DNA of 64,000 nt from Branchiostoma lanceolatum (lineage: Eukaryota; Chordata; Leptocardii; Amphioxiformes; Branchiostomatidae): assembly GCF_035083965.1 (NCBI RefSeq), contig NC_089725.1, forward strand, positions 24,189,925 to 24,253,924, given 5' to 3'. The position numbers and the translations under genes are program-made. The first letter of the stretch is position 1. Every line of letters starts with the position of its first letter. Shown here one piece after another: positions 3,126 to 53,286 of the stretch. The notes under the pieces are model-generated. The model ran no database searches and was not told where the DNA came from. It saw nothing but the letters and a program-made list of their open reading frames with translations.

Positions 3126-3476
3126 GTTTACGTCATATTTGTCCATTTTTGGCATGTTGACCACCGTCGGAGGGCAATGAAATTTCTTGTTTTTTATTTC
3201 GAAATCAGGCGAAAATGAATGAGCGCGCTGATGTCATCCATAAAAATTACTTGCTGTGGCCTAATGAGCAATTTGTTCACAAGGGCAGGATGTTTTCAAG
3301 GCCCCATTTAGACAGAAAACCGGTGAAATTGGGACGATCAAGCCCCTTGGGTTTTATGTCACTTCCTTCTCATAGCTAGTTCCGTTGACGTAAGGTAGAA
3401 AAGCCAGCAGGGTTCGATTCAAATGTCCGACGTTTGGATTGACAAAGCCTAAGGGTCTTGTACAGTTACATTCTTC

Positions 3477-3594
3477 TAATCTCCAAGCAGATCTACACCG
3501 GTGCAAAAATCATATAAGCTAGCCAGAGAAGGTCCGTCAGGCAAGTGCCTAGCTTATACGATTTTTGTACCGGTGTAGATCTGCTTGGAGATTA
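3477..3594. mobile_element. Foldback MITE with TAATCTCCAAGCAGAT ends
   Basis: Two 46-nt arms (3477-3522 and 3549-3594) are reverse complements with two mismatches and leave a 26-nt loop, so almost the whole element folds on itself. It is flanked by ACATTCTTC (3468-3476) and CCATTCTTC (3595-3603), a 9-bp target duplication with one mismatch, as expected of Mutator-like or similar cut-and-paste elements. The terminal motif CTCCAAGCAGAT recurs elsewhere in the window. Confidence 0.85.
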
Positions 3595-4054
3595 CCATTC
3601 TTCCTTCCTTCAAAATTCCTCTGATGAACACGGAAGGCTCATTAAACAACGGTCCGGCGGATACTCATATATGTATAGCCCCACATCCACATTACCGGCA
3701 AAATGGGAAAATATTGTTACACATTACTTGTAAACGTATTTTTATCTGGCTACAGATAAACGTAGCTGGTCTTTTATATACAGTCAAATATACTCGTGCG
3801 GTGGCATCAACGGAGATATTAATGTCGATGGCCATACAGAACCAAAGAAGAGTCTTAGGACCCGAAATCTCCATGAAACTTTGTTTTTTATTAAACCAGT
3901 TCCCCCCATTCCATATCGCTCAATGGTATGACCCCCACCTGTTGGGCCCAGGAGAAGTGACCCACTTTCGCTATAAATAGCTACTAACAGATGTGCCACA
4001 ATATGCAATGGACAACACTGCAAATATAGATTTTCCTCATTACTTATGCGAATT

Positions 4055-10589: not shown

Positions 10590-23419
<12,830 letters not shown>

Positions 23420-41139: not shown

Positions 41140-42048
41140 ATGGCGCAACCAACAACCCGCCAGGCAGAAGTCCTCAACAAGCTGAATTTTGAAGAGTTTG
41201 TAGAGAAGCTTGGAAATATAGTCGAGAAGTCCCCAATGGTCGCCGCGGCAGTTTGGTCAAAAAGACCGTTCTGCAGTTTGCAAGACGTCCATAAAGCAAT
41301 CGGTGACTTCATTGACGGGCTTCCAATCTACGGTGGGTGTTGCATAGAATAAGCAGATAATCACCGATATCAGCTTAATCTATTCTCCAAGCAGAGGTTT
41401 CGATCGGGGGGCTAGTAATGACTAGGCTCCAAGGAGGCCCAATGGATTGCAAAGACCGTATCCAACTGGAAGAAGGAGCTTGTATAGCAATCCAATGGGT
41501 TGCAAAACGTACTTCCTTTGCCAGTTTGATACGGTCTTAGCAACCTATAGATCTGCTTGGAGATTAAGTTATGACCGGGATTTTTAACGCTGCTAAATCC
41601 CGGCCACTACTAGCCCCCGGGCCCCGCTCGAAACCTCTCATTGGGAAATAATTTGATTCATGTTGTGTCAGCAAAAGTTTGCAGCTACAATCAGTTTTTG
41701 TCATGATTCTAGGTTCATTTCCTTCTGCCCTTGTTCCTTTCAACAGGTAAAGAAGGCCTACTTCGCTGTTTTCCTGACTTGGCGGGAAAACTGACCCGAG
41801 AAGGGCGACTGAGCGCGGATTCTACCGGAGAACAGCGGTCCGCAGGGCTGTTCGATTTAACCACGGAGGAACAGACCAACATTGCCCGGCTCAACTCGCG
41901 TTACAAGGAAAAGTTTGGGTTTCGCTTCGTGCTGTGCGCCCGTCTGAACAAGAAGGACGCCATTCTAGCAGGGCTGAAGACAAGGATCAACAACTCTAAG
42001 GATGAGGAAATCAAAACTGGTATCGGGGAGGCAAAGAAGATCTGCTGA
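41140..42048 (+). CDS. URAD: URAD-like protein (OHCU decarboxylase family), 2 exons, 164 aa, catalytic His replaced and C-terminus short
   Basis: Exons 41140-41332 and 41747-42048, phase 1/2. Known role of the family: decarboxylation of 2-oxo-4-hydroxy-4-carboxy-5-ureidoimidazoline to S-allantoin, the last step of urate oxidation, usually in peroxisomes. Family signatures are NFEEFVEKLGNIVEKSP, AAVWSKRPF, GKEGLLRC-PDLAG, EQRSAGL and FVLCARLNKKDAIL. In characterised enzymes the motif is RCHPDLAG with His (67 in zebrafish) catalytic; here it reads RCFPDLAG (Phe73). The other catalytic acid (Glu93, in GEQ) is kept. The conserved FGFPF motif reads FGFRF (Arg124). The protein ends KKIC-stop and lacks the last ~15-20 residues, including the peroxisomal SKL-type tail. 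It may be an inactive or repurposed copy. The start is ATG 41140 (AAGATGG). Confidence 0.93.
41385..41640. mobile_element. Nested foldback MITEs in the URAD intron
   Basis: The outer inverted repeat runs from CTCCAAGCAGAGGTTTCG (41385) to CGAAACCTCT (about 41627), with GGGGGCTAGTA and TACTAGCCCCC inside. Nested in it, an arm containing ATTGCAAAGACCGTATCC (about 41440-41470) pairs with one ending ATCTGCTTGGAG at 41551-41562, followed by ATTA as at 3594. It is the same end family as the 3477-3594 element. Confidence 0.7.
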
Positions 42049-42312
42049 TCACACACACACACACGAACGCTGACGAAAACATAACCTTCTCGGCGTAGGT
42101 AACAAATGTACAGATGATATCTCGGCTCGATGATTGACGTGTTCAAAGAGTATAAGTATGTTTTTAAATTTCATGTATTAATTTAAGTTACTTGAAAAGC
42201 TACACCATTTTCATGTTACATCTGCTCAGTATTCTGAAACACCACATCTCAAGTGGAGTTCTTTTGGAATTGAGTATTTACTACAAAGGCGTTGGAGGTT
42301 CTCTTGTGAATT
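42049..42312. other. Short convergent intergenic gap with (CA)n
   Basis: 264 bp between the URAD stop and the MYND gene stop. An ACACACACAC run begins at 42049, directly after the URAD stop. Both 3' UTRs must be short or overlap. Confidence 0.7.
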
Positions 42313-44691
42313 TTATTTGGAGTCGGCAGTAGTCCTGATGGTTCGTTTGAACCTTGTAAGAATGTCCTTCTTGCAACAGCAGAATTCCTTGTGGCTGTCA
42401 AACCAATGGATCCTCTGGCACTCTACACTGCAGTAGCGCGCCATGCGGCATCTGCAGAAAAGTACAGAAATAAATATTTGTAACGAATAATGATGCAAGA
42501 AGAGATAGTGATTTGATTATTATAGATCCTCCGGGGATCCCAAAACTGATGCGAGCGCGTGCAAATGAAAAAATTTGGCAAAAAAAGTTGCCTTCATCTG
42601 TCTTCACTTTCCATCGAAGAACCTCTCTCTGTTATTCCTTACACAGATAATTCGAATGTTTGATTGATTAGTACTATATTTTTCATGCTGTACAAGGAAA
42701 GTGCACAACTTGAGTCCGCCGATAATTTTTCTTATACATTTGTTTTTCTTTGAGGGTTTATGAATAAAACAAATACATTAGTCTATATGTATACGTATCA
42801 CCCACCTCGCGCATGCGCCGAACCTGGCGGGCGCATCCCTCTCACTGTTGAAACAGATAGGAGAGGAACAGACCACGTCCATGTTCAGGCCGTCCTCACG
42901 GAGCATGCGCGGGGAGAAGATGCACTCGTCATGGTCGTGTTTGGTCGCCAGGCGGTCCAGGCGGTTCTGAGACTTGTAGTAGTTGACCTTGCCGGGCTCC
43001 TGTAGCTCCCACGCCACCAGGGAAGCATGGCGAAGGAGACAACTCACGAAGTCAGATCTAGGCAAGAGCAGATAATCATGTTTTTTAAATTCAGCTGTAT
43101 CGTTTGTTTCAAAGAAAAAGACAATACAAAGGATAAGCATGGCACGAAAAAGGGTATATTCAGAATTGGCTCAAGAACCGCACATTTGGTAACGGAGGTA
43201 TAGTAACAAAAAACGAGGCAATGAACAAGCGCGTATGGTGATAAGCCGTGTAATTGGATATATTGAGCGTATTGAATTATTAGTTGTAGATTTTGCGGTT
43301 AATCCAATGGTATACAACTGTTCCCACATATTATTAGTAATCTGAAAGTAACTAAACTTTGTTAACGCTGCGTTAACCAGTCCAAGATAAGATGATTTGC
43401 TCGCTCTCTTACTCTTTGTTTTTCAAGCCTGTGTTTTCCTGCCAGTAGCTGCGAGCCTTGTCCAGGATGGTCTGGACCGCCTCCTTCATGCCGAGCACCT
43501 CCAGCTGGGCGACACAGTCCGGCCCGCCAACCTCCGCCACGTACAGAGCCATTCTCAAACCGAACCTGCAACAGAAGCTGTCGTTTACCATCCCTGCAAG
43601 TAAGTGCTAGTAGTGGAGATGGCTTGGCCGTTCAAATCATTCGTATGCAGGGCAGAGGTATTTCAGTGTTGTGATATCGACTCGTCGCTCCGTGTGTTCG
43701 TACAGTGTATGTATTTGATCGACAGAACTCATTTCAAAACACAGTAGCTAATGCCATTTAATGCAGACTAGCGTCTTCTGCCAACAGTTATAAAGCGATT
43801 TTAACTCTAACCTTAAGGACATTAAAAAACAAATAGATTGAGCAAGAATACAAAAGTCAGCGTTAACGCTATAGATTAACATAATTATCAAAATGTCAAC
43901 AGTAACAAACAAGCATACCAGGTCGTCACAACGTTGTCCTTCTTCAACATCTGCATCAGCAGGTGCCCGAAGGACGGCAGTTTGGGGTGTCCTTCGCCAA
44001 GCAGGGCGAGCAGACGGCGAGCCTTCATGGTCATCAGGGTGTTGTGGATGCCCCACAGGACCAACCACGGCACAAAGTCTAAATCATCGTCATCGTCGTC
44101 ACTACTGGTGTCACTGCTGTCGCCACGGAAGTTGTCCTCTTCATCGTTGGCACGAAACAAGCCGCGGTGGTTTAACTCCGTCAGTTCAGGATGTTCTAAC
44201 GCGGCAGTCAGCATGATCTGATAGAGACTGAGTAGTTGAGGAGCGAACTCACCCATCTTTGCAAGTGCGGGTTCGTACATACAAATGTTACAGAAGAACA
44301 TAGAAAGAGCACAGACGGGGACGCCTCCAAGCTGGTACCTCGCGAAAGAGTTCTGCTCTTTTTTACGCCTCCTGTGTATGGATGTATTCCTGGTGTTAGC
44401 TCTGTGAACAATCGCCAACATTATCTCAAGGGATGGCTTCATAGTCTTCTCTGTGACCATCTGAACTACTTTTGCGTCTTTTGGGCTCGGGAAGTCCGAG
44501 AACGCGTCCAGATCATCCACCTGTTCCCGACATTTGTGAGCGGCTCTGCTGATGTTGGCGAGGTGGTTCGCGGTGATTCGCTCTGCAAGTGCCGTCAGGT
44601 CCTCCGTGCAGTCTGAGCAGATACAAGAATCCACGTGGTGCCCTGTGCCGTCCGTCTGAGGTGGAGCTAATGCCATCCTTTGAAGGTACAT
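42313..44691 (-). CDS. MYND-type zinc-finger protein, 4 exons, 438 aa
   Basis: Exons in transcript order: 44691-43919, 43565-43413, 43057-42806, 42451-42313; phases close. Residues 1-258 are largely helical with Cys pairs near the N-terminus (CICSDC) and an acidic Ser/Asp run at about 205-218. The C-terminus holds a MYND finger: Cys372, Cys377, Cys391, Cys394, Cys400, Cys404, His413, Cys417, with the typical YCSVECQRIHW. MYND fingers bind proline-rich peptides in partner proteins. The first Cys pair is spaced C-x4-C rather than the common C-x2-C. There is no SET domain, so it is not a SMYD methyltransferase. I cannot name an orthologue. The start is the first ATG at 44691; a second in-frame ATG lies five codons downstream. 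AATAAA overlaps the stop codon. Confidence 0.86.
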
Positions 44692-44957
44692 GGCGACCGG
44701 GGCTCGGAACGATGTCTATCTTGTGCGTGAACAGGTGCAGTGTTCATAAGATGCTGTTATGTTGTGCTGTTATGGCAACTGTTCTTGAAGGTGTTCTAGT
44801 TCTATGCGCTGCTATCTAAAATGATTCGTGGGATGTTCTTGAACATCATGGCATGTAACGTTACCATTTAATTATAAAAATCTGTCTATCTGTTCATGAC
44901 TTTCAGTGATTCACTTCCGGAAGGTGACCTGTTCTGAGAAATTGGGCGTTTCTTTAC

Positions 44958-45223
44958 TTTCCAAGCAGATCTAGAGGTTCGGCCCCAGCTGGTTTTTGAC
45001 GTGCTTTTAGGCGTTTTTGTCGGGCTTTCTACTTGGAGAGTAGCCTTTTTTACTAGTATCCAGAAGAAGACCGGAAAACTGGAGTGGAATTCGTCGAGTT
45101 CAGAACACGTTGCTTCTCTTTTGTGCATCACGTGTACTTCTTTGTTTACTGGTGAGGCAACCATGCATGCCATTAAGTAATGAATGATCTTCATTGCATA
45201 TTCCTGCCCAACATCTGCTTAGA
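44958..45223. mobile_element. Probable MITE with CCAAGCAGAT/ATCTGCTTAGAG ends
   Basis: TTCCAAGCAGATCTAG at 44959 and ATCTGCTTAGAG at 45212-45223 are inverted copies of the end motif shared with the 3477-3594 element. The interior arms were not clearly matched, so element status is moderate. Confidence 0.5.
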
Positions 45224-45670
45224 GAGTTGGTCTGACCAATGGCGTTACGCTACTACACCTTACATATGGTAATGAATGAATTAGCGAGCACGCCAGTGAC
45301 GTTCATTTCGTGTTGTACAAAGAATGGTGAGGACGTGTTCCAATGTCCCTGGAGAATATATAGGTTTCAAAGTAAGTCTTCTTTTCTTTGTGTCACCACT
45401 TGTAGCTGCCATGTAAACTGTAGAACCGTTTGTAGACAAAAATGTGTGTGGAACATTTGTTCATTGGATGTCATAATATCATTTAAATGTCCGGGAATGT
45501 TTGAGGCACTGAAATGGAAATATAGACACTAACATGGCGGCGGATACAACAATGATGTCACATGGATAAGGTAGTTCATGGTTTCATGTGAGCAGTTTCA
45601 GTATGATACATTGTGGGTAATATGTCAAACTGTAGGTTCCTGGACATTTTTATGCATTGCTAACCTAATC

Positions 45671-45752
45671 AACATAACATAACATAACATAACATAACAT
45701 AACATAACATAACATAACATAACATAACATAACATAACATAACATAACATAA
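45671..45752. repeat. (AACAT)n satellite, about 16 copies
   Basis: Uninterrupted pentamer run, 82 bp. Confidence 0.97.
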
Positions 45753-46030
45753 CTCAAGTTAGCGAGGGGCCTTCAACATTTGCATATTACCCACGTCCGC
45801 ATAACCATCACACTGCATATGCGCACTTCGAAACCGTCAACTAGCTCATACGCTTCAACCAAGGAAGTCACAGCTCCATCAACTTGATTATGATAATATT
45901 TCATTGATGCAGTGAAATGACGTCCAAAACCATCATTTCATGAAATGAATGACCAGGGTAATTTCTTGCAGGCATGATGTACATGTACGTACAGGAGGAG
46001 GAAGAAATTCGAAGATGGCGTGCGGTGGCT

Positions 46031-46935
46031 GATGCTGAGTTCGCGGAGGCGGATGCTGAGTTCGCGGAGGCGGATGCTGAGCTAGCGGAGGCGGATGCTG
46101 AGCTAGCGGAGGCGGATTCTGAGTTCGCGGAGACGGATGCTGAGTTCGCGGAGGCGGATGCTGAGTTCGCGAAGGCAGATGCTGAGTTCGCGGAGGCGGA
46201 TGCTGAGTTCGCGGAGGCGGATGCTGAGTTCGCGGAGGCGGATGCTGAGTTCGCGGAGACGGATGCTGAGTTCGCGGAGACGGATGCTGAGTTCGCGGAG
46301 GCGGATGCTGAGCTAGCGGAGACGGATGCTGCGTTCGCGGAGGCGGATGCTGAGTTCGCGGAGACGGATGCTGAGTTCGAGGAGACGGATGCCGAGAGAG
46401 CTGAGGCGGATGCCGAGAGAGCTGAGGCAGATGCCGAGAGAGCTGAGGCGGATGCCGAGAGAGCTGAGGCGGATGCCGAGAGAGCTGAGGCGGATGCTGA
46501 GTTCGCGGAGGCGTATGCTGAGCTAGCGGAGGCGGATGCTGAGTTCGCGGAGGCGGATGCTGAGTTCGCGGAGACGGATGCTGAGAGAGAGATGAGGCGG
46601 ATGCCGAGAGAGCTGAGGCGGATGCCGAGAGAGCTGAGGCGGATGCCGAGAGAGCTGAGGCGGATGCCGAGAGAGCTGAGGCGGATGCCGAGAGAGCTGA
46701 GGCGGATGACGAGAGAGCTGAGGCGGATGCCGAGAGAGCTGAGGCGGATGCCGAGAGAGCTGAGGCGGATGCCGAGAGAGCTGAGGCGGATGCCGAGAGA
46801 GCTGAGGCGGATGCCGAGAGAGCTGAGGCGGATGCCGAGAGAGCGGAGGCGGATGCCGAGAGAGCGGAGGCGGATGCCGAGAGAGCGGAGGCGGATGCCG
46901 AGAGAGCTGAGGTGGATGCCGAGAGAGATGAGGCG
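46031..46935. repeat. 21-bp minisatellite, 43 units in alternating subtypes
   Basis: Units begin GATGCTGAGTTC (type A) or GATGCCGAGAGA (type B). Order by position: 17 type A (46031-46387), 5 type B (46388-46492), 4 type A (46493-46576), one 23-bp hybrid (46577-46599), 16 type B (46600-46935). Because 21 is a multiple of three, long frames stay open on both strands (332 codons plus, 432 codons minus), giving low-complexity Ala/Glu/Asp or Ser/Ala/Leu/Arg peptides. The 23-bp unit shifts the frame without introducing a stop. I read this as a non-coding VNTR, not a protein gene. Confidence 0.88.
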
Positions 46936-47567
46936 GATGGGAGGAATGCGAGGGTTGAAGATAAGAGGGTGAGGGCACGCTGGCCCAGACAGGATGGGGT
47001 GGGAGCGCGCCCTCCCGCGCTTGGTCACTGGAGGAAGAGGACTAGAAGGAGGAGGCGAAGGAAGAGGATTAGAAGGAGGAGGAGAAGGAAGAAGACGCCG
47101 TGGCGAGGATGGGCTGGTGGTTGGGTTGAGCATAGGAGGGTTACTTACTTCAATATTCACGTATATGCCAATATGCACGTTGAACATATGCATTTCCACC
47201 GCTATTACTAGAGTTTAGATATTGATTTTTCGCCATTTCTTATTTTGTAATGATTTATTGTTCATATTTTTCATGAGCAACTTTCATCATTCTTCTTTGT
47301 ATACTAGTACTCTAGTATTCTTTATCATTATGTTAGACATGTTGCATTGCTACATATTTGCACATATTTTTTGCTGACTTGACATGGATATTCATTATAT
47401 ATGATTTTTATTTCAAACAAAGTACTTTCTGGGCAAAATGTCTGTTGCATGGTTCATTTTAATTTTCTGGACGTTGTTCGATGGTGTAACTGTTCGGGAC
47501 ATAAACCAAACACTTCAGTTGCCAGCAACGGAACACATCATGGGAACCAGGACAAAAACTACTAGTA
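46936..47567. other. Purine-rich flank and AT-rich spacer
   Basis: About 46980-47120 is GGAGG/GAAGAGG-rich and probably a degenerate extension of the minisatellite. The remainder is AT-rich with no gene seen. Confidence 0.5.
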
Positions 47568-49456: not shown

Positions 49457-52400
49457 ATGTCTTCCGAAGACTTTGAAAACCACGAGGAGGATTTTAGAAA
49501 CGTTTACGATGAGCTACGACGGACGGCTCAGAGCAGACTTCCAAATGCAGTCGGAGGTGAGCGCCCCCCTCCCCCATGAAATTATTGTACTGTGTACCAT
49601 GACCTGTTGTCGTATACTAGACGGCGGCCACCGCCTCGAGAATGAAAAAAATTTTTCTAAGATTTAGTTTCTTCAACTGCTGCAGGTTTAAACCAATTGA
49701 AGAGCTGGTATTATGTATGTGTATAAAACGATATGCCGAATGACGTAACGTTACAAACGAAAACGATTTGTCTGGTCTGGCCATTTTGATTTTGAAAGAA
49801 CAAAAATATAATTGACTTTCTTGGCTGGAACGACATCTGGCAGACCAAGGGTATTATGTAGATAAAAGCTGCACTTACATAACAATGACCTAGTACACAG
49901 TCTACTACAACTTCATTGCATTCACAGAAAAAAAGATTTCATTGCATTCACAGAAAAAAAGATGATTTAATGTAACGCTAGGAACCATTAATTCGACACC
50001 CTTTTAATTCGACACTTTTAAGTATTGGCTTGCCAATTAAGATTCAGCAGGTTGATGCAAAAACTGTTAATTGCATTCCAATACGAGTTAAGTACTGACG
50101 TCAAAAAGGTACAGTCGTAAGTTCATGAAGATCAAACTTTGCAATGACGAGGTCGTCAATTTACTAACCGTTGGTTTTAACGTTATGTATGTCACGGGAG
50201 AGGGAGCAGCGGTCACACACCGTCACAATGTCGACATTTTCTTCTTCATATCATCACATTATATATCTATATTTGTATTGATCAAAAGAGGAATAAACAA
50301 TATGTCCGTCAATAACAGCAAATAAGTTTAGTTTTGTCCTTGATCCAAACAAAGCGCGACTTATCCAGAGGCTTTGCGAACGCGCGCCGTCGGAAACCGC
50401 CATTTTGAATATTCCCAGAATCATACGGGTGATCACGTGAGGAATAGCAGACGACGCAGTCATTTATATTTATCTATTTATTCATTTTTCCCCTTTCCTG
50501 TCTTGGATTATTAAATAGGCATGTCCAACAAGTGTTTATACATCATCAGCAATTGGAAATAGTAACCGACGTCAACAACTTAACTACTCTTTCTATTTTC
50601 CCCTATTTTCAAATGTAAAAGTCCGGAGCCACGTGTAAGCTAGTGCAAACAGGTCTTGAAGACCATACCAACCGTCTCACTACGGGTTTAGCATGCCAAT
50701 GACATTGTTATACTATTAAATAAATGAATTTTGGCAGCAATTAATGTAAAAGTAAAGCTTTTGCATTCTTTATTAAAGACTCTTGTCATTTTTATATTTC
50801 CGGAACATATATTTAAGAAATTAAGATAGGAAAACAACATTTCAGAGTGATCATGTATGACTGTATGTAACGTTACACGTAATAATTACTGATTGCTGAC
50901 ATGCCTGTCTTATTCACAGAGGAGAGGAAAAGAATGGTTCGAGAGGTTATGAGGGGCATAGAGGAGTGTACGACACTGGTGAGCCCTTATCTTTCGATGC
51001 ACTGAATTATAGATATACAGTAGTAACTTGATGACTATCTTTGTTCTTGGATCATTTCATGACGTAATGTCATGGCCAAGAAACAAATCAATATTGCATG
51101 CTTTACCAGACGTATTGGTAATGGAAAAGATGGGAGGAAGATATTAGAGAATGGCATGAGTTGACACTACTAGTAGGTGAAACACTAAGGAAAACAGAAA
51201 ACCGAGAAGTGTGGAGATCAAAAACTGGTTGCCAGATCTTCTGTGGTGCCCCAATGGTCAAACAATTACTAGTAGGCTAAGGGATAGATGAGATGAGAAA
51301 ATTCCAAGATTGACAGTAAGTTATTTTCCCCATGCCACAGGTCCAGGAGATGGAGGAGGAGGTGAAGCAGGCCCCGCCCACCTACAGACCACAGATGCTG
51401 AGCAGGTTACGGAACTACAGACGCGATCTTGACAAACTGCAGAGGGAGATGGTGAGGGAACTGTACACACAGAAAACAGCACAATGTTTGATGTACTTAG
51501 TAAATTATGCTGATGTTGATCAAGGTTTGATCTTTAAAAGATATACACATGCTTGATTTGTGATATTAGAATGTTTCAGAATTATGTGTTTTCTATAAAA
51601 AAATCTTCAATTTAGAGAGCATTGTTATAACAACTTTTGCTGCAGACACATTACTCAGTAGTCATTTTAACGTATCTATACAGTTGTGTGTTTAAGTCCC
51701 TCCAGAAAGTTTAGTTAACCCTGTTATGTTGATACATTCCAGAAACAAGCTTCAGGTACAGGAATGATGCGGGATGAACTGATGTCAGGAGGAACATACG
51801 ACCCTGACAGTGATGAAGCTGTAAGTAACTTAATTGCAATTCTAGGTTCTGACCCTTGTAGTGCCTAGTGGCATATAGGGCAGAAAGGTTCCTTTCTGTT
51901 TCAGTAGCAGGGTATATTTTTACAGGGAGGGGTTGCTAACCCTTCCCCTTTAACATGCTTGAGGGAACTACTCGAACATGGGACCCCAGCATCCCTTCCG
52001 AAAGACGAGTGCAGCCCCAACCGAGATGTCCTTCCCAGGATTGAACTGGGGTCTCCTAGTTAGCAACACTTAACCAGGAGCTCAAATGTGAGGCTGCTGC
52101 CAGTTGAGCTATAGGGACATCCCGAATTTTAGCTAGAGCTGGATTTTTGTTTAATTCCCTGACCTTTAGATGTTCTTTTCCAAACTCCTGATATACAGTA
52201 TACAATTGTTCTTAAATGATCCATCCCTGCTGACTGTTCTCCTCCCCAGAGGATGTCCGCTTCCCACCGTTCCAAGATGCTGCAGGGCCTGGAGAGCCTG
52301 AACAGAACCTCCGCCAGCATCGAGCGCTCCACCAGAATAGCCGTGGAGTCCGAGCAGATTGGCACGGAAACCATTGAGGAGCTCGGAGAGCAGCGGGAAC

Positions 52401-53286
52401 AACTGGTCCGCACCAGGGAAAGGGTAGGTGGAACAGCACTAGTGGGACCTTACCTTACACAGCACCTAAACATGTATAGCATTGCACTTGGAGCAGCAAT
52501 ACACTTGGAAAAGCACTGTCATGTAACCTTCAGAAGACATTAAGTTAGCAGAGCTGGAAGGTCTAGTCTATAATGTACTCATTTGTACTTGTTTGGTTAT
52601 TTGTTTGCTTGAACCTTTATTTACTCATGAACAATTGTTTCCTTGAGCCTTAATTTATTTATGGCCAACTCAACTACTGTGGAAATCAACTCAACTCAAT
52701 CACCAAGTCCTTTGTGGTCAGATGTGATTTCAATTTGTGTTCTTATACTTTAAGTGTGCTCACTACGCTACAAATGAGATGTCATAGAAGTAGGTAAGGC
52801 TCAAAGTACCATTACAGTACCATTACAGTACATACCACCACAGTGACACAAGAGGACCTAACATTCACACCTGTTCACTTCCAGGTAACAGACATGGATC
52901 AAAACCTCAGCACTAGCAAAAAGATCCTGAATGCAATGAGTAGAAGGTGGGTCTCTTTTTCTGTTTCACATTATTCCCTCTGACTGTGAATCCATCAACT
53001 AGTATATATAACATACAGTTAACTGTAACATCAACATGAAAAAAAAAGGAAAAATTTGAGCCCAGAATGTCCTTTCCCTTGGCAACACAATACTGGCAAC
53101 AGTATAAATGTTCTTGTGTTAAGGCATATATAAAATCTGACTCTGATCTGCCTTGTACCCTTTTGTAAGCTGTGTTGTGTGTGTTTCAGGGTGATGACCA
53201 ACAAGCTGATCTTAGGGATGATAATACTGGTGGAACTGGCCATCCTCCTCGGCCTCATCGCTTACAAGTGGATCATACCAAAGTAG
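49457..53286 (+). CDS. VTI1B: VTI1B, Qb-SNARE of endosomal/Golgi trafficking, 7 exons, 226 aa
   Basis: Exons: 49457-49556, 50920-50978, 51341-51451, 51743-51820, 52250-52423, 52885-52946, 53190-53286; all phases close. VTI1B is known as the Qb-SNARE in late endosome and lysosome fusion with syntaxin 7/8 and VAMP8. The N-terminal helical (Habc) domain is at about 1-90, including QMLSRLRNYRRDLDKLQREM. The SNARE motif is at about 130-195 (GLESLNRTSASIERSTRIAV, then EQIGTETIEELGEQREQL); the Gln in GEQREQ is the probable zero-layer residue. A C-terminal anchor, LILGMIILVELAILLGLIAY, is followed by KWIIPK. Closer to VTI1B than VTI1A throughout. Human VTI1B is 232 aa. Confidence 0.97.
51860..52123 (-). 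mobile_element. tRNA-derived SINE in a VTI1B intron
   Basis: Read on the minus strand, 52121-52025 is tRNA-like. GATGTCC and GGACATC form a perfect 7-bp acceptor stem. TAGCTCAACTGG (52111-52100) fits a pol III A box and AGTTCAATCC a B box. CCCAG and CTGGG make a perfect T stem. A long CTCC...GGAG arm resembles the variable arm of a type II (Leu/Ser) tRNA. A non-tRNA body containing CTCGTCTTTCGGAAGGG follows. At 97 nt and with an unclear anticodon arm it is a SINE head, not a functional tRNA. The far end is uncertain. Confidence 0.75.

Follow-up and report, generated by a model that had tools for sequence, protein, structure and literature searches.

In zebrafish URAD, an OHCU decarboxylase, Cendron is said to have described in 2007 an active site lined by His67, Glu87 and Arg161, with His67 as the catalytic residue, and these residue numbers agree with the zebrafish sequence. 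PRHOXNB (ParaHox neighbour) is a synonym of URAD. The chordate ParaHox cluster is believed to have had CHIC and PRHOXNB at its flanks, and in the same report PRHOXNB of B. floridae is drawn with the ParaHox cluster, whereas in the hemichordate P. flava it is given as absent from the sequenced ParaHox clone (PMC3698058). Amphioxus PRHOXNB has gained an intron with the MITE LanceletTn-2, according to PMC5802833. In COS-7 cells an EGFP reporter carrying the zebrafish URAD PTS1 (TKL) was mostly cytoplasmic and also marked peroxisomes (PMC8919083). The uricolysis genes URAD, URAH and UOX have been pseudogenized in apes and Tethytheria (PMC10517255). Among the titles and abstract openings of open-licence papers, no report of a His-less animal URAD was found.

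The window, by which we mean the whole 64-kb stretch of amphioxus DNA that was analysed, carries at 41140-42048 on the plus strand a URAD locus of two exons with an open frame of 164 codons. Its features are as follows.

41140..41332, plus strand: URAD exon 1, which encodes codons 1-64 plus one base of codon 65, with the ATG in good context (GAAGATGG)
41333..41746, plus strand: URAD intron, GT..AG, with a pyrimidine-rich tract before the acceptor
41380..41650, no strand assigned: foldback MITE-like element of about 270 bp in the URAD intron, fold z-score -9.6 for 41385-41650 (DNA parameters)
41747..42048, plus strand: URAD exon 2, which completes codon 65 and runs through codon 164 and the TGA
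41770..41772, plus strand: codon 73, TTT (Phe) in RCFPDLAG, at the catalytic His site (zebrafish His67)
41830..41832, plus strand: codon 93, Glu, retained, equivalent to zebrafish Glu87
41923..41925, plus strand: codon 124, CGC (Arg) in FGFRF, where FGFPF has Pro
42046..42048, plus strand: URAD stop TGA, directly after KKIC, with the tail and its invariant Arg lost
42469..42474, plus strand: AATAAA polyadenylation-like signal

The earlier note had given 41747..42048 for this gene, which lies on it but is exon 2 only; its statement that the splice sites and the frame are intact holds, the intron being a canonical GT..AG intron and the frame being open to codon 164. Neither the Kozak context nor the donor, acceptor or poly(A)-like signal is damaged. 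A processed (retro) pseudogene would have no intron, and this gene has a canonical one at 41333-41746.

By whole-domain similarity the 164-aa product belongs to the OHCU decarboxylase family, as it matches Pfam OHCU_decarbox (PF09349) with 142.6 bits (E 1.9e-41; cut-off 24) over positions 1-150 of the 155 in the profile. Its residues 10-164 align to residues 4-158 of the 174 in the zebrafish 2o70 chain with 49% identity. The AlphaFold2 model of the product, made with an alignment of 42 bacterial relatives as input, has a mean pLDDT of 91.8, and when this model was searched with Foldseek the best PDB match was 2o70 (TM 0.89-0.90, rmsd 1.4-1.5). The all-helical URAD fold is thus predicted to be intact in the product, as had been claimed earlier for the part of the fold that remains.

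The conservation of individual residues was counted in two sets of homologues which, apart from zebrafish, are all bacterial and include no other animal sequence. The pattern-search set consists of the best 80 of at least 578 confirmed bacterial loci, and since one of the two search patterns admits no residue other than His and Phe at the catalytic position, this set is biased there. The profile-search set consists of 90 bacterial loci, made up of the loci of 5 genomes and those from four phylum searches, from which 30 of 41, 5 of 5, 24 of 24 and 30 of 40 matches were taken. Six loci are common to both sets, which gives 164 distinct homologues. In viral contigs there were 25 pattern matches and none of the 25 encodes a relative.

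The residue at the catalytic site is His in 79/80 loci of the pattern set, 87/90 of the profile set and 161/164 distinct homologues, the exceptions being Leu once and Gln twice. The Leu is found in a Spartobacteria URAD (L022, the same locus as L085) which reads RALPDLAG and has an intact tail, and the Gln in L139 and L140. At the amphioxus locus the catalytic His of an active OHCU decarboxylase is missing, and the substitution of Phe noted earlier is confirmed by codon 73, TTT, at the position of zebrafish His67. This codon is two substitutions away from CAT and CAC alike and therefore a single base error cannot explain Phe73. The Glu/Gln pair, on the other hand, is present: Ser90, Glu93 and Gln94 are retained, Glu93 and Gln94 being equivalent to zebrafish Glu87 and Gln88, so that Glu93 was rightly reported as kept and its neighbour is kept too. 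At the Pro site of FGFPF, Pro is found in 80/80 loci of the pattern set, in 65/90 of the profile set and in 139/164 distinct homologues, where the other residues are Arg in 17, Ile in 5 and Val in 3. The change to FGFRF is real (codon 124, CGC) but it need not be the defect that the earlier note suggested, and we did not uphold it as a lesion, as Arg occurs naturally in 17/164 distinct bacterial homologues. It could still matter in an animal protein, since the FGFRF homologues differ at other motif positions too.

The stop after KKIC was also correctly described, with TGA at 42046-42048 and the zebrafish protein continuing for 16 residues (SLRLHSIVLSDIQTKL) beyond the equivalent end. Zebrafish Arg161 is the third residue past the last one encoded at the amphioxus locus, and an Arg at this third tail position is present in 80/80 loci of the pattern set, 90/90 of the profile set and 164/164 distinct homologues. 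In the homologues examined the tail Arg (164/164) is thus a stricter mark of the family than the His (161/164), which helps annotation. The amphioxus frame ends before this C-terminal Arg. The loss of the tail had been read as a loss of targeting, and indeed there is no PTS1, but that reading was incomplete as the invariant Arg is lost as well. Taken with the His, two active-site residues are gone, and the tail loss matters beyond targeting. Because the invariant tail Arg is gone along with the His, the loss of activity is better supported than in the earlier note. From these sequence comparisons it is well supported that OHCU decarboxylase chemistry is lost in the 164-aa product, which very probably does not work as an OHCU decarboxylase.

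The product ends in KKIC and so lacks the C-terminal PTS1 of a peroxisomal animal URAD. Near the N-terminus RQAEVLNKL (aa 7-15, 41158-41184) is a near-miss to the general PTS2 pattern, failing at one position. The loss of the PTS1 is real and yet less telling than it looks because the TKL reporter is already predominantly cytoplasmic (PMC8919083); for the same reason the earlier description of the protein as cytosolic agrees with the absent PTS1 but is a weak deduction. A further 3' exon supplying the tail seems unlikely, because there is no suitably placed GT donor and no tail-like exon in 42049-47000. After the last homologous codon no GT donor at all precedes the stop; the sole GT in the last 33 nt (stop included), at 42020, comes before the final homologous residues. 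The search of 42049-47000 for a tail-like exon after an AG found none, where shuffles (n=20) give a mean of 1.2 by chance. In-frame read-through past the TGA would add 11 codons up to the next stop and end in TKT, with no Arg at the third position; it was considered and is not claimed. TKT is not known as a standard PTS1, and the TGA lacks the CUA context of known read-through. One shifted frame over KKIC reads EDLL, which resembles the family tail RLxDLL. In shuffles this match arose in 43/2000 over 120 nt and in 4/2000 near the stop, which looks significant but is an unfair comparison, since the KKIC codons force much of the match; given KKIC, a loosely tail-like match arises in 16% of random draws. 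A deletion model for the origin of the stop is therefore not claimed, and a plain nonsense change is equally possible.

When the divergence of the protein was compared against 50 non-redundant bacterial outgroups, the amphioxus copy had on average 13.3 unique differences and zebrafish URAD 18.6, with a mean chi-square of 1.37 that is not significant. The amphioxus 164-aa protein thus appears to evolve no faster than zebrafish URAD, the difference not being significant. There are 50 sites with one residue shared by half or more of the outgroups and by zebrafish, and at these the amphioxus copy has two radical changes, H73F and P124R. At this 50% threshold zebrafish has six radical changes where the amphioxus copy keeps the consensus, and at a threshold of 70% there are two in the amphioxus copy and two in zebrafish. 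Of the strictly conserved sites the amphioxus copy differs at 2/23. The frameshifts, internal stops and widespread residue loss of a decayed pseudogene are absent, as the frame is open to codon 164, although the early terminal stop is itself a lesion of the pseudogene kind. These comparisons point to no general decay outside the active site, which does not prove constraint. In a per-site count on the bacterial profile the amphioxus copy scored 233.6 bits and zebrafish 179.8 bits; the strongly deviating sites of this count (23 in amphioxus, 28 in zebrafish, mean of 6.46 in 50 bacterial sequences) were set aside, as animal residues score badly on a bacterial profile.

The surroundings of the gene were examined for ParaHox neighbours and for a second copy. 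No homeodomain or hexapeptide motif was found in six frames of the whole 64-kb window by a search for short motifs, which would miss a diverged one, and the stretch around URAD that is free of the homeodomain motif covers 41 kb upstream and 22 kb downstream. Because amphioxus PRHOXNB is drawn beside the ParaHox genes, whereas no homeodomain motif is present in the window, a second copy is suspected, and URAD at 41140-42048 may well be a second, intron-bearing copy. Within the window tblastn returned the gene itself and only weak matches (E 0.23 and worse). By analogy with the intron of amphioxus PRHOXNB, the foldback element in the intron would fit the locus being PRHOXNB itself or a later duplicate. 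The absence of ParaHox motifs and the intron element therefore pull apart on copy number. The element motif TCTGCTTGGAGATTAA recurs with at most 2 mismatches near 3476-3595, 11206, 36197 and 44954, a frequency given without a chance expectation.

Elsewhere in the window a MYND-finger open frame (42313-42516, minus strand, E 3.4e-08) converges on URAD and ends 265 bp from its stop, and larger minus-strand frames up to 44715, which have no Pfam match, may belong to the same MYND-finger gene. The minus strand also carries a WD40 gene, which we take to be DCAF8-like. A V-SNARE_C open frame lies at 52220-52540 on the plus strand (E 2.2e-12), and this SNARE exon at 52220 is presumably VTI1-like. Also on the plus strand are a Cut8-domain open frame (2-325, E 4.6e-12) and a reverse transcriptase open frame of 489 aa (14717-16183, RVT_1 E 6e-22). 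A 21-bp unit is repeated in about 44 copies at 46022-46939, and a 336-aa open frame (45962-46972, plus strand) spans these repeats with peptide repeats such as EADAERA.

Direct results are that the His was substituted, that the protein is truncated, that the lost residues are conserved, that frame, splice signals and predicted fold are intact and that degradation does not extend further. The explanation towards which we lean, as one that falls just on the probable side, is that this URAD copy was recently inactivated and its OHCU decarboxylase activity lost. Phe would have replaced the catalytic His, and an early stop would have cut off the C-terminal part that holds the substrate-binding Arg and, where there was one, the PTS1. 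The product would then be inactive and the copy would now be under little or no constraint, either a dead copy that has only just been fixed or, as a poorer fit, a null allele that still segregates. A working URAD would be located elsewhere in the genome, because, judged from the window, the gene drawn beside amphioxus Cdx is a different one. What counts for inactivation is that the His (161/164) and the tail Arg (164/164) are both gone and that only 2/23 strictly conserved sites differ. The lack of a homeodomain motif in the window, set against the drawn position of B. floridae PRHOXNB, is a further point in its favour, and the pseudogenes of this pathway in apes and Tethytheria (PMC10517255) are a precedent. 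In simulated random substitution of the CDS, 20 substitutions (0.041 per site) gave a mean of about 2 conserved-site changes and a P of 0.50-0.52 for no internal stop, and for this reason a short neutral phase suffices. With 40 substitutions (0.081 per site) the P for two or fewer radical changes was 0.22 and that for no stop was 0.29. When 0.05 or 0.15 indels per substitution were assumed, 20 substitutions left a P for no stop and no frameshift of 0.27 or 0.07, and 40 left one of 0.075 or 0.005. Neutral evolution is allowed up to roughly 0.08 substitutions per site and is disfavoured beyond about 0.1. The heterozygosity of amphioxus is 3.2-4.2% (PMC12862219), which when halved is about 0.02 per lineage. 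A segregating null fits only moderately because at 10 substitutions, or about 0.02 per lineage, the P for two or more conserved changes was 0.24, and a just-fixed dead copy fits somewhat better. What counts against inactivation is that the His codon has two base changes, and a conserved codon was hit twice with a P of 0.02-0.07 at 10-20 substitutions, unless this was one dinucleotide event; that with the assumed indels the frame stays open after 20 substitutions with a P of only 0.27 or 0.07; and that no radical change is seen at conserved sites beyond codons 73 and 124 and the gene signals are intact.

The same two-hit codon at the His speaks for a retained pseudoenzyme, that is, a URAD fold selected without catalysis, for example as a non-catalytic dimer partner of active URAD or for some other structural or binding purpose that has nothing to do with it, which we regard as a serious possibility that falls short of probable. 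Radical changes are limited to two positions, whereas the functional zebrafish enzyme has six (50% threshold) or two (70%), unique differences are not in excess of those in zebrafish (13.3 vs 18.6 with 50 outgroups, mean chi-square 1.37, not significant), and the predicted fold is good (pLDDT 91.8, TM 0.89-0.90). There are also two precedents: the reptilian uricase, which is without its PTS1 and has been repurposed (PMC10517255), and a catalytically dead paralogue that activates the trypanosomatid deoxyhypusine synthase (PMC3663545). However, slow evolution since the zebrafish split tells little about the time after inactivation, the same pattern would come from a fresh null, and a good structural model is no proof of protein use. 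The non-catalytic, repurposed paralogue proposed in the earlier note is thus possible, with radical changes only at His73 and Pro124 and no excess divergence compared to zebrafish, but neutral evolution to as much as about 0.08 substitutions per site could mimic it. A more specific version, in which URAD was duplicated away from the ParaHox genes, lost its His and tail and was kept to sequester, stabilise or regulate active URAD or to sense ureides, is in our estimate unlikely. It is very improbable that the protein still works, fully or in part, as an OHCU decarboxylase by means of other residues or with a tail from an alternative exon or stop read-through: Ser90, Glu93 and Gln94 are retained, the His is missing in 3/164 distinct bacterial homologues and the 11-codon read-through ends in TKT compared to TKL in zebrafish, but the tail Arg is present in 164/164 homologues, there is neither a GT donor before the stop nor a tail-like exon in 42049-47000, and the read-through tail has no Arg at its third position. 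We give hardly any credence to the idea that the species has a normal His and tail and that the assembly or the reads are wrong here or the sequenced animal carries a rare allele; a CA repeat directly follows the stop, but Phe73 is two bases off both His codons and two separate lesions must both be errors.

Compared to zebrafish URAD (PDB 2o70/2o73/2o74), the amphioxus copy has the same fold with 49% identity and a TM of 0.89-0.90 and keeps Glu87 and Gln88, whereas the zebrafish protein carries His67, a tail of 16 residues that includes Arg161, and the weak PTS1 TKL (PMC8919083), and the amphioxus copy has Phe and is tail-less. It shares its family with amphioxus PRHOXNB, and as the intron of the latter contains LanceletTn-2 (PMC5802833) so the intron of this locus contains a foldback MITE-like element; PRHOXNB is, however, a ParaHox neighbour, and no homeodomain motif was found in the window of this locus. 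Bacterial OHCU_decarbox proteins with FGFRF have the same Arg for Pro in FGFPF (17/164 distinct loci), but in these the His and the tail Arg are kept and most read HPR and not HPD after the His. With the URAD, URAH and UOX pseudogenes of apes and Tethytheria (PMC10517255) the locus has in common the loss of a uricolysis gene; unlike in these, nothing before the stop disturbs its frame or its splice signals and its lesions are at the active site, and if it is a fresh null, it would show in clear form how the loss of an enzyme begins. If, on the other hand, the same copy is common to cephalochordate species and under selection, it would be a repurposed protein of the third step of uricolysis and a counterpart of the repurposed reptilian uricase, and it would test a non-catalytic use of the URAD fold. 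That uricase, CRUOX, acts in the same pathway, has no inactivating mutations in its gene, has lost its PTS1 and has a new role, but it keeps its active-site residues and is a redox-sensitive enzyme, as stated in PMC10517255, whereas the amphioxus copy is without two catalytic-site residues.
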